64,000 nucleotides of DNA from the NCBI GenBank assembly GCA_022508345.1, contig JAFLVK010000001.1, positions 418,371 to 482,370 of the forward strand, in the 5' to 3' direction. Source of the DNA: Clostridiales bacterium. Lineage in GTDB: Bacteria > Bacillota > Clostridia > Christensenellales > CAG-314. Positions 21,102 to 39,265 of this stretch are shown piece by piece. Position numbers and translations under genes: made by a program. Position 1 is the first letter of the stretch; each line of letters starts with the position of its first letter. The notes beneath the pieces were generated by a model. That model saw only the letters and a program-made list of their open reading frames with translations, had not been told where the DNA came from and made no database searches.

Positions 21102-23759
21102 TTAAATAATAAAGCTAGTCTCTTTGCTGTCTGTCCATATTTCGTGAGTCACACCGTCTTCCGCCCAGTGCCAATAATTATCCCCGTCGACGGCAGTACC
21201 GTTTTCATACGGGTTAACTACACTGTAGTAGTACCGTGTTTTATTGCTAAGGTATATGTGTCCTGTGAGTTGTAACCATTGGCCTTTCGTGCCACAGTAG
21301 TAAACAGTTTTCAAGTTGTCGCAGCTAGTGAATGAACTGAAGCCAATAGATTGTACACTTGTCGGGATGGTAATAGTAGTTAAGTACATGCACTGATAAA
21401 ACGCATAACTATCGATTGACTTACCACCTGTAATAATTACTTCTTTTAGTGAACTTGGTACAGTCAATGAATTCTCGTAATAGTGAGAAGCTCCGAAAAT
21501 GTAGCCGAAGTGAGTTTGGCTTGTATCATCAAGCGCCGCCCCCACAAACGGTATGGTTATACTTTCCAAGCCTGTACAACTGTCAAAAGCACCATATCCT
21601 ATGCTCACTACATTTTTGGGAATAGTAATGCTTTTTAAACCGCTACAATAGTAAAAGGCATATTTGGGAATTGTAGTGACTTTGTTTCCTATATTTATCT
21701 CTTCCAAACTTTCACAACCGTTAAATATTGGTGAAAATTCAACGTCTAACAAAATATCACATGATATTGCATTCCAATTTACTGTATGTAAGTTGGTGCA
21801 ATCTTTGAATGCACCATAGCCTATTGTTTTAAGTGATTCGGGCAATGTGATACTTGTTAAATTTGCTTGATTTTCGAAAGCATTAGCGGCAATAGCAACC
21901 GTTCCTTCCTGTATTTCAAGAGCGAAATTGGCAGGCATATTTCCTTTGTATCCATACAGTACATTGTCTACATATATTAAACCGTCTGAACTGATGTAAT
22001 AGATAACTGAAGGCAAATTGTTGTTCATTGGCGGAACATATATGATTTCCGTTTTTTCTTTATTAAGCAAAATACCTTGTAGCGACGAATAATAGGGATT
22101 GTTGTCATCCACGATTATATTTTCTAAAATACTCTCATCGTTTACAATGGAAGAAATATTGGGTATGTTTGTAACGGAACTGTCTATCCAAATTTGCTTT
22201 ACTGTTTTGTCAGCCCAAGGGAAATTCCCCATGTGAAAGAATTGATACAAAGACCTAGAGGGTATTGTTCCATACAAATTCAATTGATTGGCATCGTTAA
22301 TATACTTCCACGAGAAGATAAAGTTGCTTTCGTCAAATTTCACTTGCTGGCTATGGTCACCTTTTGCGTCCGACCACGATATTGTCGCTGAATCGGGAAA
22401 TAAACGGGAATTGCTGTCGCCCATATTTGAAACTGATGCGTCACTTGGTAATGCTGACATGGAAAAACTGCCGTCGTTGTAATAAGTGCGAACCGCAACT
22501 GTTCCATTTGATATGTCTACAACGTCTATTACGTTTTTTCTGTTCCCAAGTGTGATTTTCTTGACTTCCTTGGAGCTTGAGTCACTATTGTTGCTGTGCG
22601 TTTCCATTGAAACACCGGCAACACGACCGCTTCCATCAAATGAAACGATAAGCAGTTTGTCATTTATTTGTTGAGCTTTTTCCTCAATCTTTGTGGAAAC
22701 ATCGAAAAATACTTCCATATCTTCAATGTTTTCCATATTAGAAGCCCATTCGTTTAGCGCTGTTTCCTTATCGTGGTGATTATCAAGATATTGTCCATAA
22801 TATATCCAAATACTGTTTGATTTTTGATCGGCTTCTCCAAGTAGCTTTTCTACATTTTCTTTGCTGTCGCCGATATTTATCTTCTCAAGAGTGTTTATGT
22901 AAAATTCGCTAGTCGTAACAGGAACAATTATACCGAAAACTAACACGCATACCACAATCAGTGCAAGAATAACGCCGCCTACTGTGCGAGCAATTCTTTG
23001 ACGTTTATTGTAGCTTTCGGTTTTCGCGTTTTTCTTACCGTGTACCACAACAACTGTCTTGCCACCGCTTATCCAACTTTTGTAGCTGTGTGCAACTTTT
23101 TGCATAAAAGTGGGTGTAGATAACATCTGCACCAACGCGCTAGCGTATTTAGTGTGGTGCTTAGCAAGTAGAATATCTATTAAAGTTAATAAAACAGAAA
23201 TAGCCACAAAAACTACAGAAAAAGTAATCATAAGCTTTGTTGCTGTTTCTACTTGCAGACCGTCGTTGTTTATCGCAACATATAGTACACAGGCAGTAAC
23301 TAAAATACAAAAATACATTGCATACGCAATAGCAGTTACCGCCAACTTAAGCTTTTTTGTTTTGCGCAGGCTATATATCATGAAATAGGCTATGGCAACA
23401 ACACAGGACACTGCGGAAAGGACAATCAATGCGTTAGCGACGGCATGGAAAGTGTAGTCACTTGTCATTGTGTAAATGTTGCCCCAGGAAATTGTCATGC
23501 TTGCTGCCTGACAGGACATAAACACCCAATTAAGCAAAGAAAACAGTGCGAAAAACGCAATGGGTAACAAATTTAAAGCTTTATGTAAATTTTGGTAAAA
23601 CTTCGCACTAAATTCGTAAGAAACATTAACAGATTCGGACGATTGTGAAGTTGCACCGCCAGCGGGTTGATTAGCTTCACTCTGTTCAATAAATCTTTGA
23701 CCGCATTCGGGGCAAAATTTTCCCTCAAACTCCGTCCCGCACTTAAAGCATTTGTTCAT
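21102..23759 (-). CDS. Zinc-ribbon, multi-helix membrane protein with BspA-type LRR domain
   Basis: 885 residues. A double CxxC zinc ribbon (CFKCGTEF ... CPECGQRF) starts the protein. Four membrane helices lie at about 60-195 and a fifth at about 262-285. After it comes an SmpA/BamE-like stretch (KINIGDSKENVEKLLGEAD, about 300-320), then a domain without recognised relatives (about 400-530). A run of roughly ten BspA/TpLRR-type repeats of about 23 residues (pattern LxxITLPESLKTIGYGAFKDCTN) lies from about 600 to 830. Topology suggests a cytosolic zinc ribbon and a surface-exposed LRR. LRR proteins of this class bind host or microbial ligands in gut bacteria; no ligand is known here. Excellent ribosome-binding site (CCAGGAGG). 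Confidence 0.8.
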   Translation of the reverse strand: MNKCFKCGTEFEGKFCPECGQRFIEQSEANQPAGGATSQSSESVNVSYEFSAKFYQNLHKALNLLPIAFFALFSLLNWVFMSCQAASMTISWGNIYTMTSDYTFHAVANALIVLSAVSCVVAIAYFMIYSLRKTKKLKLAVTAIAYAMYFCILVTACVLYVAINNDGLQVETATKLMITFSVVFVAISVLLTLIDILLAKHHTKYASALVQMLSTPTFMQKVAHSYKSWISGGKTVVVVHGKKNAKTESYNKRQRIARTVGGVILALIVVCVLVFGIIVPVTTSEFYINTLEKINIGDSKENVEKLLGEADQKSNSIWIYYGQYLDNHHDKETALNEWASNMENIEDMEVFFDVSTKIEEKAQQINDKLLIVSFDGSGRVAGVSMETHSNNSDSSSKEVKKITLGNRKNVIDVVDISNGTVAVRTYYNDGSFSMSALPSDASVSNMGDSNSRLFPDSATISWSDAKGDHSQQVKFDESNFIFSWKYINDANQLNLYGTIPSRSLYQFFHMGNFPWADKTVKQIWIDSSVTNIPNISSIVNDESILENIIVDDNNPYYSSLQGILLNKEKTEIIYVPPMNNNLPSVIYYISSDGLIYVDNVLYGYKGNMPANFALEIQEGTVAIAANAFENQANLTSITLPESLKTIGYGAFKDCTNLHTVNWNAISCDILLDVEFSPIFNGCESLEEINIGNKVTTIPKYAFYYCSGLKSITIPKNVVSIGYGAFDSCTGLESITIPFVGAALDDTSQTHFGYIFGASHYYENSLTVPSSLKEVIITGGKSIDSYAFYQCMYLTTITIPTSVQSIGFSSFTSCDNLKTVYYCGTKGQWLQLTGHIYLSNKTRYYYSVVNPYENGTAVDGDNYWHWAEDGVTHEIWTDSKETSFII

Positions 23760-32530: not shown

Positions 32531-32559
32531 TTGTCTATTGCAGATAATTATGTTACAAT
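32531..32559 (+). promoter_or_regulatory. Promoter of the TIR-NACHT-LRR gene
   Basis: TTGTCT (32531-32536), 17-bp spacer, TACAAT (32554-32559). The predicted start near 32566 leaves a leader of about 24 nt containing TTGGAG as the ribosome-binding site. Confidence 0.65.
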
Positions 32560-32589: not shown

Positions 32590-35500
32590 ATGGAAAGATC
32601 GCGTATCGACATAAAAATGAGAAATGTGTTTATCAGCTGGACAGGTGCAGACTGCGCATTGAAGGACCGCATTGTGGAACGGCTTGTTGCGGGCAAAATT
32701 ACCTGCACTGTTTCCGACGGCAAAAGCTCGGACGGGAGGTGCTCGGGCAACTTCGTGCAATGGAGCGCTGACGCTGCGAAATCGGCAAACATATTTTTGC
32801 TGATATTGACGGAAAATACACTGAGAAGCGCATATGTACCCCTTGAGATAAAGGAATTTTTGAATATAGAAGATGCGGAGAACAGGATAATTGTTGTTTG
32901 TCCCAGCCTTGCGTTGTGGAGAAACGCCATATTTAACTACGGCGGTGAAAAAATAAAGCTGAGTGAACGCAATATCAGCATTACGGAAATGCCCGACTGT
33001 GTACTTACCGACAAAATACTGGACGATGTTTACGCAAAAACAACGGACCTAATCAACAACCGCGCCTACAAGGTGTACAGGGAAGAGATTAGCCCCAAAT
33101 ATATTGATATATTGTCCCTGTACGACGATGACGCGCCCGACCGCAAGATAAAATTTAGCGACTTGTACATAAACAGACACGTTACGGAAAAGGATGAATA
33201 CGGCAACATTGTGGCTACCTATCCCTCGCCCGAATTGCTGGTTAAGTGCGACGACATCTTTTACATTTGCGGGCCTGCAGGTAGCGGCAAAACACAGTAT
33301 ATCCACCAATTGCAAAACAGCGTGGGAGAGGACAGCCTTGTTATCACACTGTCCTGCTCGAAGATTGCCACGTCCTCCGCAACACTGCGCGAACTGATGT
33401 TTGAGGAATTTTGCAGAGTGCTGGGCAACCCCATCTACTTTACGGAGGACAACTTTGTAAACCTGCTCAACAACAGGCGGCTTGTGCTGGTGCTTGATGG
33501 GCTGGACGAGATTGCTTCGCAAAGCGGCGTGCGGACATTCATCAAAAAGGTGGAAGAGGAGTACTACGCGCGGCACAATGCCGATACCACCCTGTTCATC
33601 ACAGGACGAGACGAAAAAAGCTCCAATCGAATTGCCTTGACCGGCAAAAAACTGCGAATACTGTACCTTGAGCAGCTTACCGACGAAGAAACTCATACCC
33701 TGGGCAACAATTTGTTTTTGTCCTTCGGTTCGTCAATGAACAGCGACGGCTTTTTTGTCCGTATCAAGGATTTGCAGGACGAAATCAAGTACAACCCACT
33801 GCTTTTGTCGCAACTGGCAGTGATTTACAAGGAAAACGGCGACGTTCCCAATACAGTTGTGGGAATATTCGATGCAATTTCGAAAATTACACTAAACATT
33901 GACGCTAGCAAGCACTACACCAGTATCCCCGAGCGTTACATGGATATGATTGAGCAAATAAGCACGTTGCTCAAGCGTTTTGCACAGCGACGTTACATTT
34001 TGCAATCAAACGACGAAGAATGCTCTCCACAGGAGATATTTGAAGATATCCTGTTCAATGATTACAAGGACGATTACTCGGAACGCGCAGCATTTTTGGT
34101 GGAGTTTTTGCTGAAACGCTCCATTCTTGTGGACAACGGCAACCGCTTCTACCACAAGATGTTTTTGGAATACTTCACAGCAGTGTATTACTACGAGCGC
34201 AGCATTTTGCGCAGAAAAGTAGCCGATTACGACGTGTTTAACGAGTTGTTTGCGCACTATTCCGACCCATATTGGGCACAGGTAATAAGCATGTTCCTGA
34301 TAAAAACCGACAGCTTGATGAACGGCACGGAAATGTGCAATTTGTTGAATGAGTTGATAAAATCGGGCAACATTGTTGATTACACTTTGCTGCTGGACAC
34401 CTGCGAGGGGCTTGGCAACAACAAGCAGGATGCGCAAGTTGCAATTGTGTGCGATATTTTGAAAAAATCTGCCGAAAAGATTTACCCGCCATACGGACCG
34501 CTGTTTTGGTACGTGCCCACCTATTCGCTGTACGAGCAGGCACTGCTTGCGCTAAATATGTTGCAGGGCAATGCTGCTGCACTGGCGCTGGTTCGAGACG
34601 TGTGCTACATTTACGGACAGAAAAACACGCTAGCCGACATCACAGATAAGGTAGACGGCAAGGCTCTACTTAGCAGCGCGCCAAGCCTTAAAGGCGTGCG
34701 CAGGGCACTGTGTGAAATTTTCTATTTAGGTAACACCAACTACACCGACGGGAAGAATATATACCCCCGTTGCTTCAACGTGGCGGAAACACTATCTATG
34801 CGGGACAACAGCTGCGGCGTTGGCGGAAAGATGAGCGAACCCTTTAGAGACGAGCTGGGGCTGTACAGCCACGAAAGCTACAACGAGCTAAACGGCGAAT
34901 ACATGGGGTTTGTTTCCTGCCCGTACGATCTTGACAAGGTAGAGCAAACCCTGCGCGCTAAAGCCACCCGACGCGTAACAGGCATTGCCTATTCGCCAAC
35001 GCATGCCCTCAACAGCGCTACTGAACGAAATCTGAACCCAGTAGACAAGTTATTTGTTGAGGACCCAATTAAATTTACCCATCCGCAATTCTTCAACCAA
35101 ACGTGCGTATGCTACTACCCTGAAGACTTAGACATCTACAGCACTTCTAAATGTACGCTAAACAACAACGAACAATTGTTTAGCGTTAGCATTAGCGACT
35201 ACGGCATACTGTACCTGTACGGTGACGTGACATTCCCGTTTAAGGACGAGTCTTGTATTTGTGATGAAATGTTCTTCGATTGCCACAGACTAAATGCCAT
35301 CAAGCTTCCTAACAGTATTACTCACATTGGGGACAAGGCTTTTTCTGGAAGTAGTCTTGTGTCAATAACTTTGCCCGACAACCTAATAACGCTAGGCGAG
35401 GGTGTATTTCTCTGTTGTCAAAACCTTACCTCCGTCTTTGTACCCAGCAAGGTCACACAGTTGAAGGAAAACACTTTTGAAAACTGTTTCAGCTTACATA

Positions 35501-38280
35501 CCGTTGTGTTACCTAGCCACTTACGCTCAATAGATAAACGGTGTTTTGGTTGGTGCACGTCATTACAAAAAATCAACATACCTAGCTCGGTAACGGAAAT
35601 AGGAGAAGAAGCGTTTAGAAATTGTTCGTCCCTTGTAGAAGTGTATCTTCCTAGCGGTATAACCACAATAAGCAGCGATTGCTTTAACGCATGTGTAAGC
35701 TTGAAAGATGTAACAATTCCCCAAAGCGTAACACAGATACATGTAAACGCCTTTTACGGCTGTGTTGAACTGTCAAGCATACAGGCACCAGGCGTACAGG
35801 AAATAGCCTATGCCGCATTTAGCAATTGCAAGGCGCTAAACAGTGTCCGTTTCGGCACATTGACATCAATTGGCGCGCACGCTTTTGCCGAATGCGACAG
35901 CTTGTCGCAGGTGACACTGCCCGACAGTTTGTCAATTATCAGCAAATTTGCGTTTGCGGGATGTAAAAAGTTAACCCAAGTAACAATACCCAACAGCGTT
36001 AAGCAAATTGAGGGTGGAGCTTTCATGAATTGCTCTGCACTGGCTAGTATTGACATTCCGTCCAGCGTAACCGTTGTTGGAAACCAAGCCTTTTACGAAT
36101 GTGCGCAACTAGTTAACGTGAAATTGCACGACGGACTGCAATTTGTAGATAACTACGCATTTAGCAAGTGCAACAGTCTACGAGAAATTTACTTGCCTGA
36201 CAGCGTAACTCAAGTGAACAACAGCTTTCAAGATTGTGAAGCTCTTGCTAAGGTACATCTGCCCTGTAGCTTGACTAAACTAGGCACCTCAATATTTAGC
36301 GGTTGCTTGTCACTGGAAGAAGTACACATTCCCTATTCCGTCACGGTAATTGGCAGCAGCGCATTTGCAGGCTGTGCTAAATTGAAAAAAATAGCACTGC
36401 CACAGTCGCTACTTGAAATTGACCGTTTCGCTTTCCACAAATGCATTGCGCTTTCCGCAATTGATATACCTGCATCGGTGCAAAAAATTGGCTCTGCCGC
36501 ATTTTACGGCTGCGCAAATTTACAATCGGTGCGGCTACACAAAGGACTGGCTACGATTGAACACGGAGCTTTTAACGGATGTGTGAAGCTTAGAAAAATT
36601 GTTATCCCACACACTGTCAACAGCATTGACTTTAGCGCATTTGACAACTGTGACAAATTGAAGATAATCGTTCCGCAAACTTTCAAGCCCTTGGCAGACA
36701 AGTGGACACCGCCGAAAAACTGTCGAATACGCTTTGTTAGGGTAAAAACATCTACACTTACGCTTCACGAAGGTATGACGGAAGTTACCCCCGATTTAAT
36801 TGCCGACAAAAACGCAAAACAAATCATTATTCCCAACGGCGTTGAGGAAATAGCTGACGAAGCCTTCCGTAATTGCGCTACTCTTACCGAAATTACACTG
36901 CCCGATAGCGTCAAGCGTATTGGAAACTTCGCATTTGCCGACTGCAACAATCTCGAAACCGTGCACATGGGGGAAGGATTAACTACAATTGGACGCTTTG
37001 CGTTTAAAAACTGTCCAAACTTGCAAAATATAACCCTGCCCGACAGCGTAACGACGCTTGGCGCCTACGCTTTTTCAGGTTGCAATATAAAAAGCATACG
37101 CCTTTCAAGTAATCTAAAGGTTATTGCCGACGGTACATTTAAAGATTGCACCCTTGCGGAGCTTACCCTGCCCGAAGGGGTGACGGAACTTGGTGACAGC
37201 GCGCTATCTGGTTGCAAGCTTAGCAAATTGACACTTCCATCCACTATCAAAAAGATTGGCGAAAGAGCATTTAGTTATTTGAGCGGTATTGACGATATTG
37301 TTATCCCTCACGGCGTGACGGAAATTGCTCCAAGCATGTTTTTCAGCTGCTTTGCCAAGCGCATAATACTACCTCACGGTTTGGAAACAATTGGTGCCAG
37401 CGCCTTTTTCGATTGCCGTATTTCCCAATTGACTATTCCCGAAACTGTGCAAAAAATAGGTTTCAAAGCCTTCATGGCATGTGGTAACCTGCGGGAACTC
37501 TACCTTCCAGACAGCGTTACCGACATACAAACAGAGGGCAAAACCGGCGAGTATGGGGCATTTGCCTCGAGTGGTATAAAGAAGGTACGCCTGCCACGTT
37601 CAATGAAAGAAATACCGCGCAAACTGTTTCAACATTGTCACAACTTAGAAGAAGTCGATATTCCTAGCGGTGTCACGGAAATAGGGCAAGAGGCTTTTGC
37701 CAACTGTGACAAATTGCGCACCGTACGCCTGCCCGACACGTTAGAGCTTATATGTTTCGACGCCTTTGTCAACTGCAAAAGCTTGACAGACGTGACAATA
37801 CCCAACTCGGTGAAATACATACAAAGGGGCGCTTTTGCTAACTGTACAAGCTTGACAGAAATTAGCTTCAACGACAACTTGGATGAACTGGGAGCAATAC
37901 AATTAAAAGATTGGGACTTTGTGTTTCCTTCGTGGAGGAGATTTAATAGAGAAAGCGCTCTTGGCGTATTTGAAAATTGCGAAAGCCTTACGAAAATTCA
38001 CCTGCCAAGTGAATTGACCGTTGTGGACGAAAACCTGTGCGCAGGCTGCACAAATTTACAGGAAATTGAAATACCCAACGCAGTTACAGAAATTAAAAAG
38101 CTTGCTTTTGCACATTGCATTTCACTAAGAACGCTGACAGTACCCACTTCTGTAATTAACATTGCCGACGATGCCTTCGCCGACACACAATTAGAAACAC
38201 TGACCATAAGCAGAAACTTTGAAAACAAAATAGACAGCTTGTTCAGTAACAACAAACCCAAAAAGATAATTTACATTTAA
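32590..38280 (+). CDS. TIR-NACHT-leucine-rich-repeat protein (bacterial NLR-like)
   Basis: A 1896-residue protein with no signal peptide or membrane helix, so cytosolic. Residues about 10-130 are a TIR domain (RNVFISWTGADCALKDRIVERL, then SANIFLLILTENTLRSAYVPLEI, with Glu86 the candidate NADase glutamate). About 218-440 is a NACHT/STAND ATPase: Walker A GPAGSGKT (228-235), Walker B LVLVLDGLDE (298-307) and sensor FITGR (Arg340). A winged-helix-like part includes FYHKMFLEYFTAVYY near 520-534. A helical region of unknown type (about 540-860) leads into about 40 BspA-type repeats of 23 residues (about 870-1890). In bacteria, TIR and NACHT proteins are anti-phage sensors; the LRR would be the sensor end. 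Defence here is inference. It is flanked by housekeeping genes, with its own promoter and terminator. Confidence 0.9.
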   Translation: MERSRIDIKMRNVFISWTGADCALKDRIVERLVAGKITCTVSDGKSSDGRCSGNFVQWSADAAKSANIFLLILTENTLRSAYVPLEIKEFLNIEDAENRIIVVCPSLALWRNAIFNYGGEKIKLSERNISITEMPDCVLTDKILDDVYAKTTDLINNRAYKVYREEISPKYIDILSLYDDDAPDRKIKFSDLYINRHVTEKDEYGNIVATYPSPELLVKCDDIFYICGPAGSGKTQYIHQLQNSVGEDSLVITLSCSKIATSSATLRELMFEEFCRVLGNPIYFTEDNFVNLLNNRRLVLVLDGLDEIASQSGVRTFIKKVEEEYYARHNADTTLFITGRDEKSSNRIALTGKKLRILYLEQLTDEETHTLGNNLFLSFGSSMNSDGFFVRIKDLQDEIKYNPLLLSQLAVIYKENGDVPNTVVGIFDAISKITLNIDASKHYTSIPERYMDMIEQISTLLKRFAQRRYILQSNDEECSPQEIFEDILFNDYKDDYSERAAFLVEFLLKRSILVDNGNRFYHKMFLEYFTAVYYYERSILRRKVADYDVFNELFAHYSDPYWAQVISMFLIKTDSLMNGTEMCNLLNELIKSGNIVDYTLLLDTCEGLGNNKQDAQVAIVCDILKKSAEKIYPPYGPLFWYVPTYSLYEQALLALNMLQGNAAALALVRDVCYIYGQKNTLADITDKVDGKALLSSAPSLKGVRRALCEIFYLGNTNYTDGKNIYPRCFNVAETLSMRDNSCGVGGKMSEPFRDELGLYSHESYNELNGEYMGFVSCPYDLDKVEQTLRAKATRRVTGIAYSPTHALNSATERNLNPVDKLFVEDPIKFTHPQFFNQTCVCYYPEDLDIYSTSKCTLNNNEQLFSVSISDYGILYLYGDVTFPFKDESCICDEMFFDCHRLNAIKLPNSITHIGDKAFSGSSLVSITLPDNLITLGEGVFLCCQNLTSVFVPSKVTQLKENTFENCFSLHTVVLPSHLRSIDKRCFGWCTSLQKINIPSSVTEIGEEAFRNCSSLVEVYLPSGITTISSDCFNACVSLKDVTIPQSVTQIHVNAFYGCVELSSIQAPGVQEIAYAAFSNCKALNSVRFGTLTSIGAHAFAECDSLSQVTLPDSLSIISKFAFAGCKKLTQVTIPNSVKQIEGGAFMNCSALASIDIPSSVTVVGNQAFYECAQLVNVKLHDGLQFVDNYAFSKCNSLREIYLPDSVTQVNNSFQDCEALAKVHLPCSLTKLGTSIFSGCLSLEEVHIPYSVTVIGSSAFAGCAKLKKIALPQSLLEIDRFAFHKCIALSAIDIPASVQKIGSAAFYGCANLQSVRLHKGLATIEHGAFNGCVKLRKIVIPHTVNSIDFSAFDNCDKLKIIVPQTFKPLADKWTPPKNCRIRFVRVKTSTLTLHEGMTEVTPDLIADKNAKQIIIPNGVEEIADEAFRNCATLTEITLPDSVKRIGNFAFADCNNLETVHMGEGLTTIGRFAFKNCPNLQNITLPDSVTTLGAYAFSGCNIKSIRLSSNLKVIADGTFKDCTLAELTLPEGVTELGDSALSGCKLSKLTLPSTIKKIGERAFSYLSGIDDIVIPHGVTEIAPSMFFSCFAKRIILPHGLETIGASAFFDCRISQLTIPETVQKIGFKAFMACGNLRELYLPDSVTDIQTEGKTGEYGAFASSGIKKVRLPRSMKEIPRKLFQHCHNLEEVDIPSGVTEIGQEAFANCDKLRTVRLPDTLELICFDAFVNCKSLTDVTIPNSVKYIQRGAFANCTSLTEISFNDNLDELGAIQLKDWDFVFPSWRRFNRESALGVFENCESLTKIHLPSELTVVDENLCAGCTNLQEIEIPNAVTEIKKLAFAHCISLRTLTVPTSVINIADDAFADTQLETLTISRNFENKIDSLFSNNKPKKIIYI

Positions 38281-38285
38281 TTCAC

Positions 38286-38337
38286 AACAAAAAAACACCC
38301 CATTTGTTGCATTGTTCGACAAATGGGGTGTCTTTTT
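38286..38337. terminator. Strong bidirectional terminator after the TIR-NACHT-LRR gene
   Basis: ACACCCCATTTGT (38295-38307) and ACAAATGGGGTGT (38319-38331) make a perfect 13-bp stem with A-run and T-run on the two sides. Confidence 0.92.
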
Positions 38338-38343
38338 CTATTT

Positions 38344-38377
38344 CCTACTCGCCCCATCGGCGAGGTGGCCTCCGCGG
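38344..38377. repeat. Short GC-rich hairpin element (family 2), copy C
   Basis: CTACTCGCCCCATCGGCGAG and the adjoining GTGGCCTCCGCGGCTAGCGG sit between the terminator and the degV stop. On the minus strand the first part reads CTCGCCGATGGGGCGAG, like copies A and D. The GCGGCTAGCGGGC part recurs in the rpmH leader (57502-57514). Confidence 0.6.
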
Positions 38378-39265
38378 CTAGCGGGCTTCAGCAGCTAAAG
38401 GAACGGGGCGCCGGTCGGCAATGAAGATGACACCAACGGTGCCGGGTCCGCAGTGAGAACCGATAATCGGTCCCACTGTTTGGCGCACAATCTTTGCCTC
38501 GGGGCGTTTGTCACGTATCATTTGCGCCAAGATGTCGCCGTCCTCGGGACAGTCGGCATCCAGAACGTAAACGCTGTACTCCGTACCCGTAAGGTCGGCA
38601 ATGACACTATCTGCCATTTTCCTGAGGGCCTTGCGCTTACCTGTAATCTTTTCAAAAACCTTGAGGCTGCCCTTTTCGTCTATTGTAAGTATGGGCTTGA
38701 GCGACAACAGCGTTCCCGCAAATGCGGCAATGCCGGAGAGCCTTCCGCCACGCTTGAGGTGCATGAGGTCGTCTACAACGAAGTAAACGGAGCTCCTGTC
38801 GCGAAATTCCGTGAGCTTAGCAAGTATTTCCTCGTCGCTTGCGCCTGCGTTTTTGAGTTCGGCAGCGTACTCCATTTGTATGCCCGCACCAAGACAAATC
38901 GACTTAGTGTCAAACACGGTGCACTTGCGCTCGGGATATTTATCCTTTAAGCGATTGAGCGCTGTTTGCAAATGGTCGAAAGTTGCGCTCATGGCGTGCG
39001 AAAAGCTAACGTACAGCACATCTTCGCCTTTGCTGAAATACTTTTCCAATATTTCCACGTATTCGTCGGGATTGAGCGCCATTGTGGTGGGAACTTCACC
39101 GTTACGAACGGCGTTGTAGAATTTTTTGAAATCGGTGTTTTTGCCCAGATCGTAGTAGTAAACCTCACCGCCGTAGGAATAGGGCATGGCGATACAGTCT
39201 ACGCCAAGCTCCTCCTGACGTGTGTACCACAAATCTCCGTCAGCATCACAAATAAGTACACTCAT
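38378..39265 (-). CDS. DegV family fatty-acid-binding protein
   Basis: 295 residues, starting at MSVLICDADGDLWYTRQEELGVD after an AGGAG site; the longer frame runs into gtrA. DegV/FakB fold: an N-terminal domain with ADGDLWYTRQ (Asp instead of the common DS-x-xDL), the fatty-acid loop FSHAMSATFDHLQ, then VDDLMHLKRGGRLSG and the C-terminal GPIIGSHCGPGTVGVIF. These proteins bind a fatty acid for phosphorylation by FakA. It is the last gene of the radC-gltX-gtrA-degV operon, overlapping gtrA by four bases (ATGA). It resembles the partial DegV gene at the window's left edge. Confidence 0.94.
   Translation of the reverse strand: MSVLICDADGDLWYTRQEELGVDCIAMPYSYGGEVYYYDLGKNTDFKKFYNAVRNGEVPTTMALNPDEYVEILEKYFSKGEDVLYVSFSHAMSATFDHLQTALNRLKDKYPERKCTVFDTKSICLGAGIQMEYAAELKNAGASDEEILAKLTEFRDRSSVYFVVDDLMHLKRGGRLSGIAAFAGTLLSLKPILTIDEKGSLKVFEKITGKRKALRKMADSVIADLTGTEYSVYVLDADCPEDGDILAQMIRDKRPEAKIVRQTVGPIIGSHCGPGTVGVIFIADRRPVPLAAEAR

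Follow-up and report, generated by a model that had tools for sequence, protein, structure and literature searches.

A predicted bacterial NLR joining TIR, NACHT and leucine-rich repeats, with a repeat array that is likely exchanged as a block

A 64,000-nucleotide stretch of a Clostridiales bacterium genome (CAG-314; GCA_022508345.1, contig JAFLVK010000001.1, positions 418,371-482,370 forward), here called the window and used for all positions below, encodes a protein, P0001, that is probably a single-chain bacterial nucleotide-binding leucine-rich repeat receptor (NLR) acting in the cytosol as an immune receptor. Recombination has probably exchanged its whole array of leucine-rich repeats (LRRs) as a single unit, leaving both ends constant. 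The gene is a single unbroken open reading frame (ORF) on the plus strand, running from an ATG at 32590 to a stop at 38280 and encoding 1896 amino acids (aa); the host genome is a 1.40-Mb draft in 47 contigs, 94.9% complete. Other P numbers denote homologous proteins, L numbers loci or stretches that were read, and G numbers genomes.

As read from the sequence, the domain order, the invariance of catalytic-type residues, the lack of a visible export signal, the near-identity of P0002 around a different array, and conflicting trees point to this reading. A near-identical front and identical last 29 residues enclosing a very different array suggest that the protein is likely an immune receptor inside the cell, one that would change its recognition by exchanging the whole sensor. 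A broader proposal, about evenly balanced between right and wrong, is that the TIR domain, the NACHT domain, the bridge that follows it and the C-terminal cap form a fixed chassis, with complete LRR arrays circulating between strains as sensor cassettes through recombination at the array borders. With such a chassis a population could perhaps hold a repertoire of receptors, comparable to plant NLR alleles or to the variable lymphocyte receptors (VLRs) of lampreys.

Array and backbone identity among relatives

P0001 and P0002 are 98.6% identical over aa 1-790, with identical TIR and NACHT parts, and diverge from about aa 780; their arrays share 44% identity, yet the last 29 aa are again identical. 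P0003 has a front 85% identical to both, and its array is 71% identical to that of P0002 and 44% to that of P0001, which makes the P0001 array the odd one out. The tree of front plus bridge (10 rows) and that of the array with the last 34 aa removed (8 rows) conflict. Approximately unbiased (AU) tests rejected sisterhood of P0001 and P0002 for the array (p 2.3e-6) and of P0002 and P0003 for the front (p 4.7e-4), on quick trees built without a mixture model and for groups named after the identities had been seen.

Six of the 15 pairs with a bridge identity of at least 0.85 have an array identity of 0.52 or less: P0001/P0002 (array 0.44, cap 0.91), P0042/P0044 (0.47, 0.82), P0017/P0027 (0.50, 0.85), P0032/P0033 (0.52, 0.88), P0010/P0011 (0.52, 0.60) and P0064/P0213 (0.39, 0.20). 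Cap identity is at least 0.82 in four of these six. A further case, P0007/P0008 (front 0.84, array 0.37), falls under the 0.85 bridge limit; it comes from the front-and-array comparison that also covered P0001 to P0003, which considered only pairs with arrays longer than 200 aa and so dropped one protein of 199 aa. Around P0064, the arrays of P0064 and P0068 (0.97) and of P0070 and P0213 (0.93) form two kinds that are 0.38-0.39 identical to each other, and the backbone of P0064 is nearest to that of P0213; arrays and backbones therefore do not travel together. Among 13 pairs with related arrays, no clear hot face of the repeat was found, the differences being spread over exposed positions at about 0.27-0.47.

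The GC content at third codon positions (GC3) of P0001 is 0.606 for aa 1-800 against 0.448 for the array, with seven neighbouring genes at 0.55-0.65. The relative at L004 has values of 0.578 (front) and 0.315 (array), and L104 goes from 0.64-0.78 in the front to 0.35-0.46 in the first array half, then 0.59 and 0.51. The step is absent from a bridge-LRR gene in G400 (0.35/0.35). In two LRR_5 genes of the own genome GC3 barely changes (0.50/0.52 and 0.33/0.38), so that coding for LRRs does not by itself bring about the drop, although these comparison genes are few and AT-rich as a whole. L105 (G950), encoding 1975 aa, is low throughout (0.30-0.45, against 0.72 in a neighbouring ORF), and the whole gene looks foreign.

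When the own genome was searched with the DNA of 35000-38400, the region matched itself, and the only other hits were a hairpin self-match (E 8e-6) and short stretches at E of 0.0075 or above. The array protein found, besides itself, only other LRR_5 stretches at 31-46% identity, and P0002 as a query found no better array, with 27-44% identity outside the gene. Silent LRR cassettes in this genome were rejected, since none of these queries gave a stored array. Diversification by a diversity-generating retroelement (DGR) was likewise rejected, as the 94.9%-complete genome gave 0 matches to reverse transcriptase; a second copy of the gene was also not found in it. With no second copy, stored array or reverse transcriptase found, recombination between strains through the constant ends would remain as the route.

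Domain architecture and predicted structure

The sequence-only reading had proposed a TIR domain, a NACHT ATPase and about 40 repeats in two blocks within one chain, in the effector-ATPase-LRR order of animal and plant NLRs, and the analysis bears this out. Pfam matches TIR_2 at aa 13-104 just over its cut-off (E 1.6e-6; 29.1 against 28 bits), NACHT at aa 225-368 (E 3e-8; 34.1 against 26.7 bits) and LRR_5 in 11 stretches (1008 bits in total), in that order. Glu86, Walker A GPAGSGKT (228-235), Walker B LVLVLDGLDE (298-307) and Arg340, all named earlier, stand at these places in the translated ORF, and the strands of the predicted model give 39 repeats, 20 plus 19. An N-terminal effector domain is indicated by the TIR_2 match, the TIR topology of the model and the alignment of plant RPP1 from residue 7; the STAND ATPase, with Walker A, Walker B and sensor residues, and the C-terminal LRR array of an NLR are both present. 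P0001 also falls within the definition of bacterial NLRs (the bNACHT group) in PMC12169576, namely NACHT plus LRR in one bacterial ORF.

In the model, the TIR region has a TIR-like alternation of strands and helices reaching about aa 157, and Glu86 sits in helix 83-91, right after the third strand. A glutamate at this place is the catalytic residue of TIR NADases. The position of Glu86, together with its invariance, fits the TIR fold with a predicted catalytic Glu expected of a TIR NADase. E86, K234, D303, D306, E307, R340 and H522 are invariant in 71/71 family members with a full front, counted on 71 of the 80 homologues because P0072-P0080 have no full TIR-NACHT-bridge front match.

The NACHT part adopts an NLR fold in a confident model, in line with the earlier reading, with fold matches covering aa 154-671. 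Its NACHT, winged-helix and helical domain 2 (HD2) arrangement is predicted to resemble that of human NLRP3, at about 12-16% sequence identity to animal and plant NLRs. Avs3 and Avs4 appear in the Foldseek list at E 1e-6 and 4e-6, weaker than animal NLRs, and there is no PADLOC match. Sequence searches against solved structures gave one meaningless match for the TIR domain and none for the whole front. A second model (aa 700-1896, 12 rows; predicted local distance difference test 81.1, predicted template modelling score 0.54) is confident across the repeats and poor across about its first 160 residues. The internal stretch at aa 1358-1383 resembles the C-terminal cap, giving the look of two capped arrays fused end to end. 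Table 1 lists the features.

Table 1. Features of the P0001 gene and its flanks (positions in the window)
Feature	Positions	Strand	Evidence
Whole gene: TIR, NACHT, bridge, LRR array, C-terminal cap; 1896 aa	32590..38280	+	ORF, Pfam
TIR domain, aa 13-104; predicted catalytic Glu86 at 32845-32847	32626..32901	+	Pfam; model; invariance
NACHT core, winged helix and start of HD2, aa 155-549; Walker A 228-235, Walker B 298-307, Arg340, His522	33052..34236	+	Pfam (225-368); fold matches 154-671; invariance
Bridge, aa 550-803: end of HD2 plus conserved segment; various front parts in relatives	34237..34998	+	Homologue comparison
LRR block 1, aa 901-1357, 20 repeats	35290..36660	+	Predicted model
Internal stretch, aa 1358-1383, strand-helix-strand, cap-like, dividing the array	36661..36738	+	Predicted model
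LRR block 2, aa 1411-1867, 19 repeats	36820..38190	+	Predicted model
C-terminal cap, aa 1868-1896, strand-helix-strand; 29 residues identical in P0002	38191..38277	+	Model; comparison
Promoter-like site TTGTCT-17-TACAAT	32531..32559	+	Weak, as the window holds 12 such sites against 8.2 expected by shuffling
Terminator-like hairpin, 15 pairs, behind the gene	38295..38331	+	Longest stem of 8 such sites against 7.7 expected

Proposed mechanism and competing explanations

The behaviour of known NACHT and TIR proteins, described in part in PMC12169576, suggests how the receptor might act. The LRR array would bind a product of a phage or another intruder in the cytosol, and the ATP-driven NACHT switch would open and oligomerise. 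The TIR domains, brought together, would then cleave NAD+, and the infected cell would halt growth or die. Array exchange between strains would retarget the receptor and leave the killing part untouched.

Several observations weigh against this account. Nine of the 15 close pairs retain similar arrays (0.69-0.97), and of the six decoupled pairs one includes a partial record (P0010) and another, P0064/P0213, differs in the cap too. Arrays of swapped pairs (0.39-0.52) mostly lie somewhat above the level of unrelated backbones (mean 0.349, 99th percentile 0.465, maximum 0.54 over 5788 pairs with bridge identity below 0.6), so arrays carried by related backbones still show some kinship, and part of their ancestry remains shared. 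The homologue database was clustered at 90% identity, a step that conceals pairs similar in backbone and array alike; the proportion of swapped pairs is therefore inflated and is not readable as a rate. The P0001/P0002 breakpoints are placed at the protein level only, and no donor array was found, the best 120 of 6635 proteins (E of 1e-60 or less) all being at most 44% identical to the array besides P0001 itself. No defence genes were seen beside P0001, whose neighbours are housekeeping genes by NCBIfam, PADLOC gave no match at E of 1 or less, and no experiment on any family member was found in the literature.

Nothing in the sequence names the ligand, and an NLR-type receptor might instead respond to plasmids, to meeting related or competing bacteria, or to damage of the cell. 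NLR-like proteins in fungi serve self/non-self recognition. In Caulobacter they serve gene transfer agent release (PMC13236601). A trigger other than phage is nonetheless rather unlikely, given that those bacterial NACHT proteins that were tested defend against DNA and RNA phages (PMC12169576) and that quick sensor change fits an arms race.

Very fast turnover in place, by repeat duplication, loss and substitution, would make exchange unnecessary. Repeats are prone to expansion and contraction, array length ranges from 261 to 1322 aa across 110 bridge proteins, the array evolves faster than the front in unswapped pairs (for example, 0.71 against 0.85), and the residual similarity above the unrelated level would fit as well. 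It is hard to reconcile with P0001 and P0002, whose TIR and NACHT parts are identical, whereas the arrays of P0002 and of P0003, a more distant relative, are still 71% identical; the tree conflict, the GC3 step and the sharing of arrays across unlike backbones in the P0064 group also make in-place turnover improbable.

Assembly chimeras are a more doubtful source of the swapped pairs, even though most relatives are metagenomic, LRR DNA is repetitive and the judgement was made without reads. A chimera would need two switches and a return to the right cap in P0001/P0002, the ORFs stay open, the P0001 gene lies inside a 702-kb contig, and similar cases turn up in further clades and from other sources.

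A surface or secreted BspA-type protein, with TIR and NACHT outside the cell or incidental, is hardly credible: LRR_5 arrays are known on surface proteins and the top NCBIfam match is the adhesin HupY (367 bits, against a cut-off of 1250), but P0001 has no detectable signal peptide, membrane segment or LPxTG motif, as the earlier call of a cytosolic protein requires, unlike two LRR_5 genes of its own genome with apparent lipoprotein signals at their starts, as judged by eye, and its ATPase motifs are invariant although ATP is a cytosolic fuel.

Distribution, known systems and genomic site

A search with aa 1-880, which scored only the 7992 candidates sharing most words, found at least 80 proteins including P0001, and since the weakest of those listed has E 9e-41, the architecture is more than chance. 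The bridge alone found at least 91 proteins, every one annotated with LRR_5; only proteins of about 1043 aa or longer could be candidates, so bridge proteins without LRRs may exist unseen. Their front parts vary, from TIR-NACHT to TIR with a weak Sel1 match and no NACHT match, and one has no TIR match. The bridge of about 250 aa between NACHT and LRRs is conserved within the P0001 branch. By eye, the TIR-NACHT-LRR proteins of L104 and L105 lack it, their array following HD2 directly; the bridge is therefore the mark of a single branch rather than of the architecture as a whole. Of 110 bridge proteins, 94 matched a regular expression for the cap; about eight of the 16 misses show it by eye, and the rest are partial records, fusions or unlike. 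Two bridge-LRR proteins, P0215 and P0220, carry FtsK gamma behind the array, P0220 also FtsK alpha and motor, either as fusions to a DNA-translocase part or as gene-prediction or assembly joins.

The family is rare and patchy. Among 61 genomes of relatives, 4 had any match, with the full length solely in the own genome. This set and those of the class, order and phylum are overlapping samples. The full gene occurs in 1 of 25 genomes of the genus, three others having weak TIR or NACHT matches only. The class sample gave 2 of 391, one of them bridge and array only; the phylum sample 1 of 398, the own genome; and the order sample 5 of 396, namely P0001 and four partial matches, two of which are L104 and L105 and two cut by contig ends. 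Mobile carriage was rejected: the phage records searched held no family member, none of 10 pattern-matching stretches in viral contigs was confirmed as one, and two Rhodococcus plasmid NACHT proteins match at only 23% identity. Several TIR-STAND types seem to be used within the genus. L006, L007 and L008 (congeners G022, G005 and G008) encode other TIR proteins with a P-loop region that is NB-ARC-like by eye and no LRR in the stretch read. L009 and L010 (G005 and G008) have Sel1-like repeats followed by TIR-like and NACHT-like parts, also by eye.

A bacterial NLR as such is not new: PMC12169576 already names NACHT proteins with LRRs "bona fide bacterial NLRs" within the bNACHT group. P0001 shares with them a NACHT module and LRRs in one ORF and, compared by description, differs in having a TIR front, a bridge and a cap that are conserved, an array of the BspA type, and probable exchange of that array. 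One member of the group, bNACHT25, has a nuclease front and no LRR. A literature search, with most subscription papers outside its coverage, turned up neither LRR array exchange in a bacterial NLR nor NACHT-LRR combined with TIR, bridge and cap. Plant TIR-NLRs such as RPP1 and animal NLRs (NLRP3, NLRC4, NOD2) differ from P0001, which is bacterial, carries TIR on NACHT rather than NB-ARC, and has BspA-type LRRs. Avs3 and Avs4 are STAND ATPase defence proteins, as P0001 probably is, with the weaker fold match given above. Avs proteins have tetratricopeptide-type sensors and nuclease fronts.

Lamprey VLRs have a variable LRR part between constant ends, as in the P0001 family, but somatic cells build them out of stored cassettes; no such cassettes were found in the P0001 genome, and the change here is evolutionary. 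The DGR-diversified NACHT/C-type lectin sensors of multicellular bacteria are also NACHT immune proteins with a selectively diversified part, but in those proteins (PMC10907252) it is the lectin that is mutated by reverse transcriptase, whereas in P0001 the whole array differs. The P0001 family bears on how bacterial NLRs gain new specificities, as it includes natural pairs of receptors whose switch and killing part are almost alike but whose sensors differ strongly. Such pairs make it directly testable whether the LRR part alone sets specificity, as in many plant NLRs. If the exchange reading is true, a modular immune receptor with exchangeable LRRs exists in bacteria, and its constant ends could serve as recombination handles.

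NCBIfam identifies the neighbours of the gene as YchF, a UppP-like protein (below its equivalog cut-offs), a DegV-like protein and RadC. The uppP region was read in 14 congeners, none of which matched the N-terminal 870 aa. There, uppP and degV are adjacent in six (L039, L040, L041, L043, L044 and L045; about 80-510 bp apart by match ends), other genes lie between them in two (L037 5437-9993 and L042 5239-9691), hinting at a variable site, and degV was not found beside uppP within the stretch read in six. The gene is thus an accessory one at a variable site, and the earlier view of a lone gene held up. Elsewhere in the window, an 885-aa ORF (21102-23759, minus strand) has a zinc-ribbon-like start, hydrophobic segments and a short LRR_5 stretch. 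Just ahead of the window, G000:C1:416543-416908 holds an LRR stretch with two internal stop codons, probably a decayed LRR gene.
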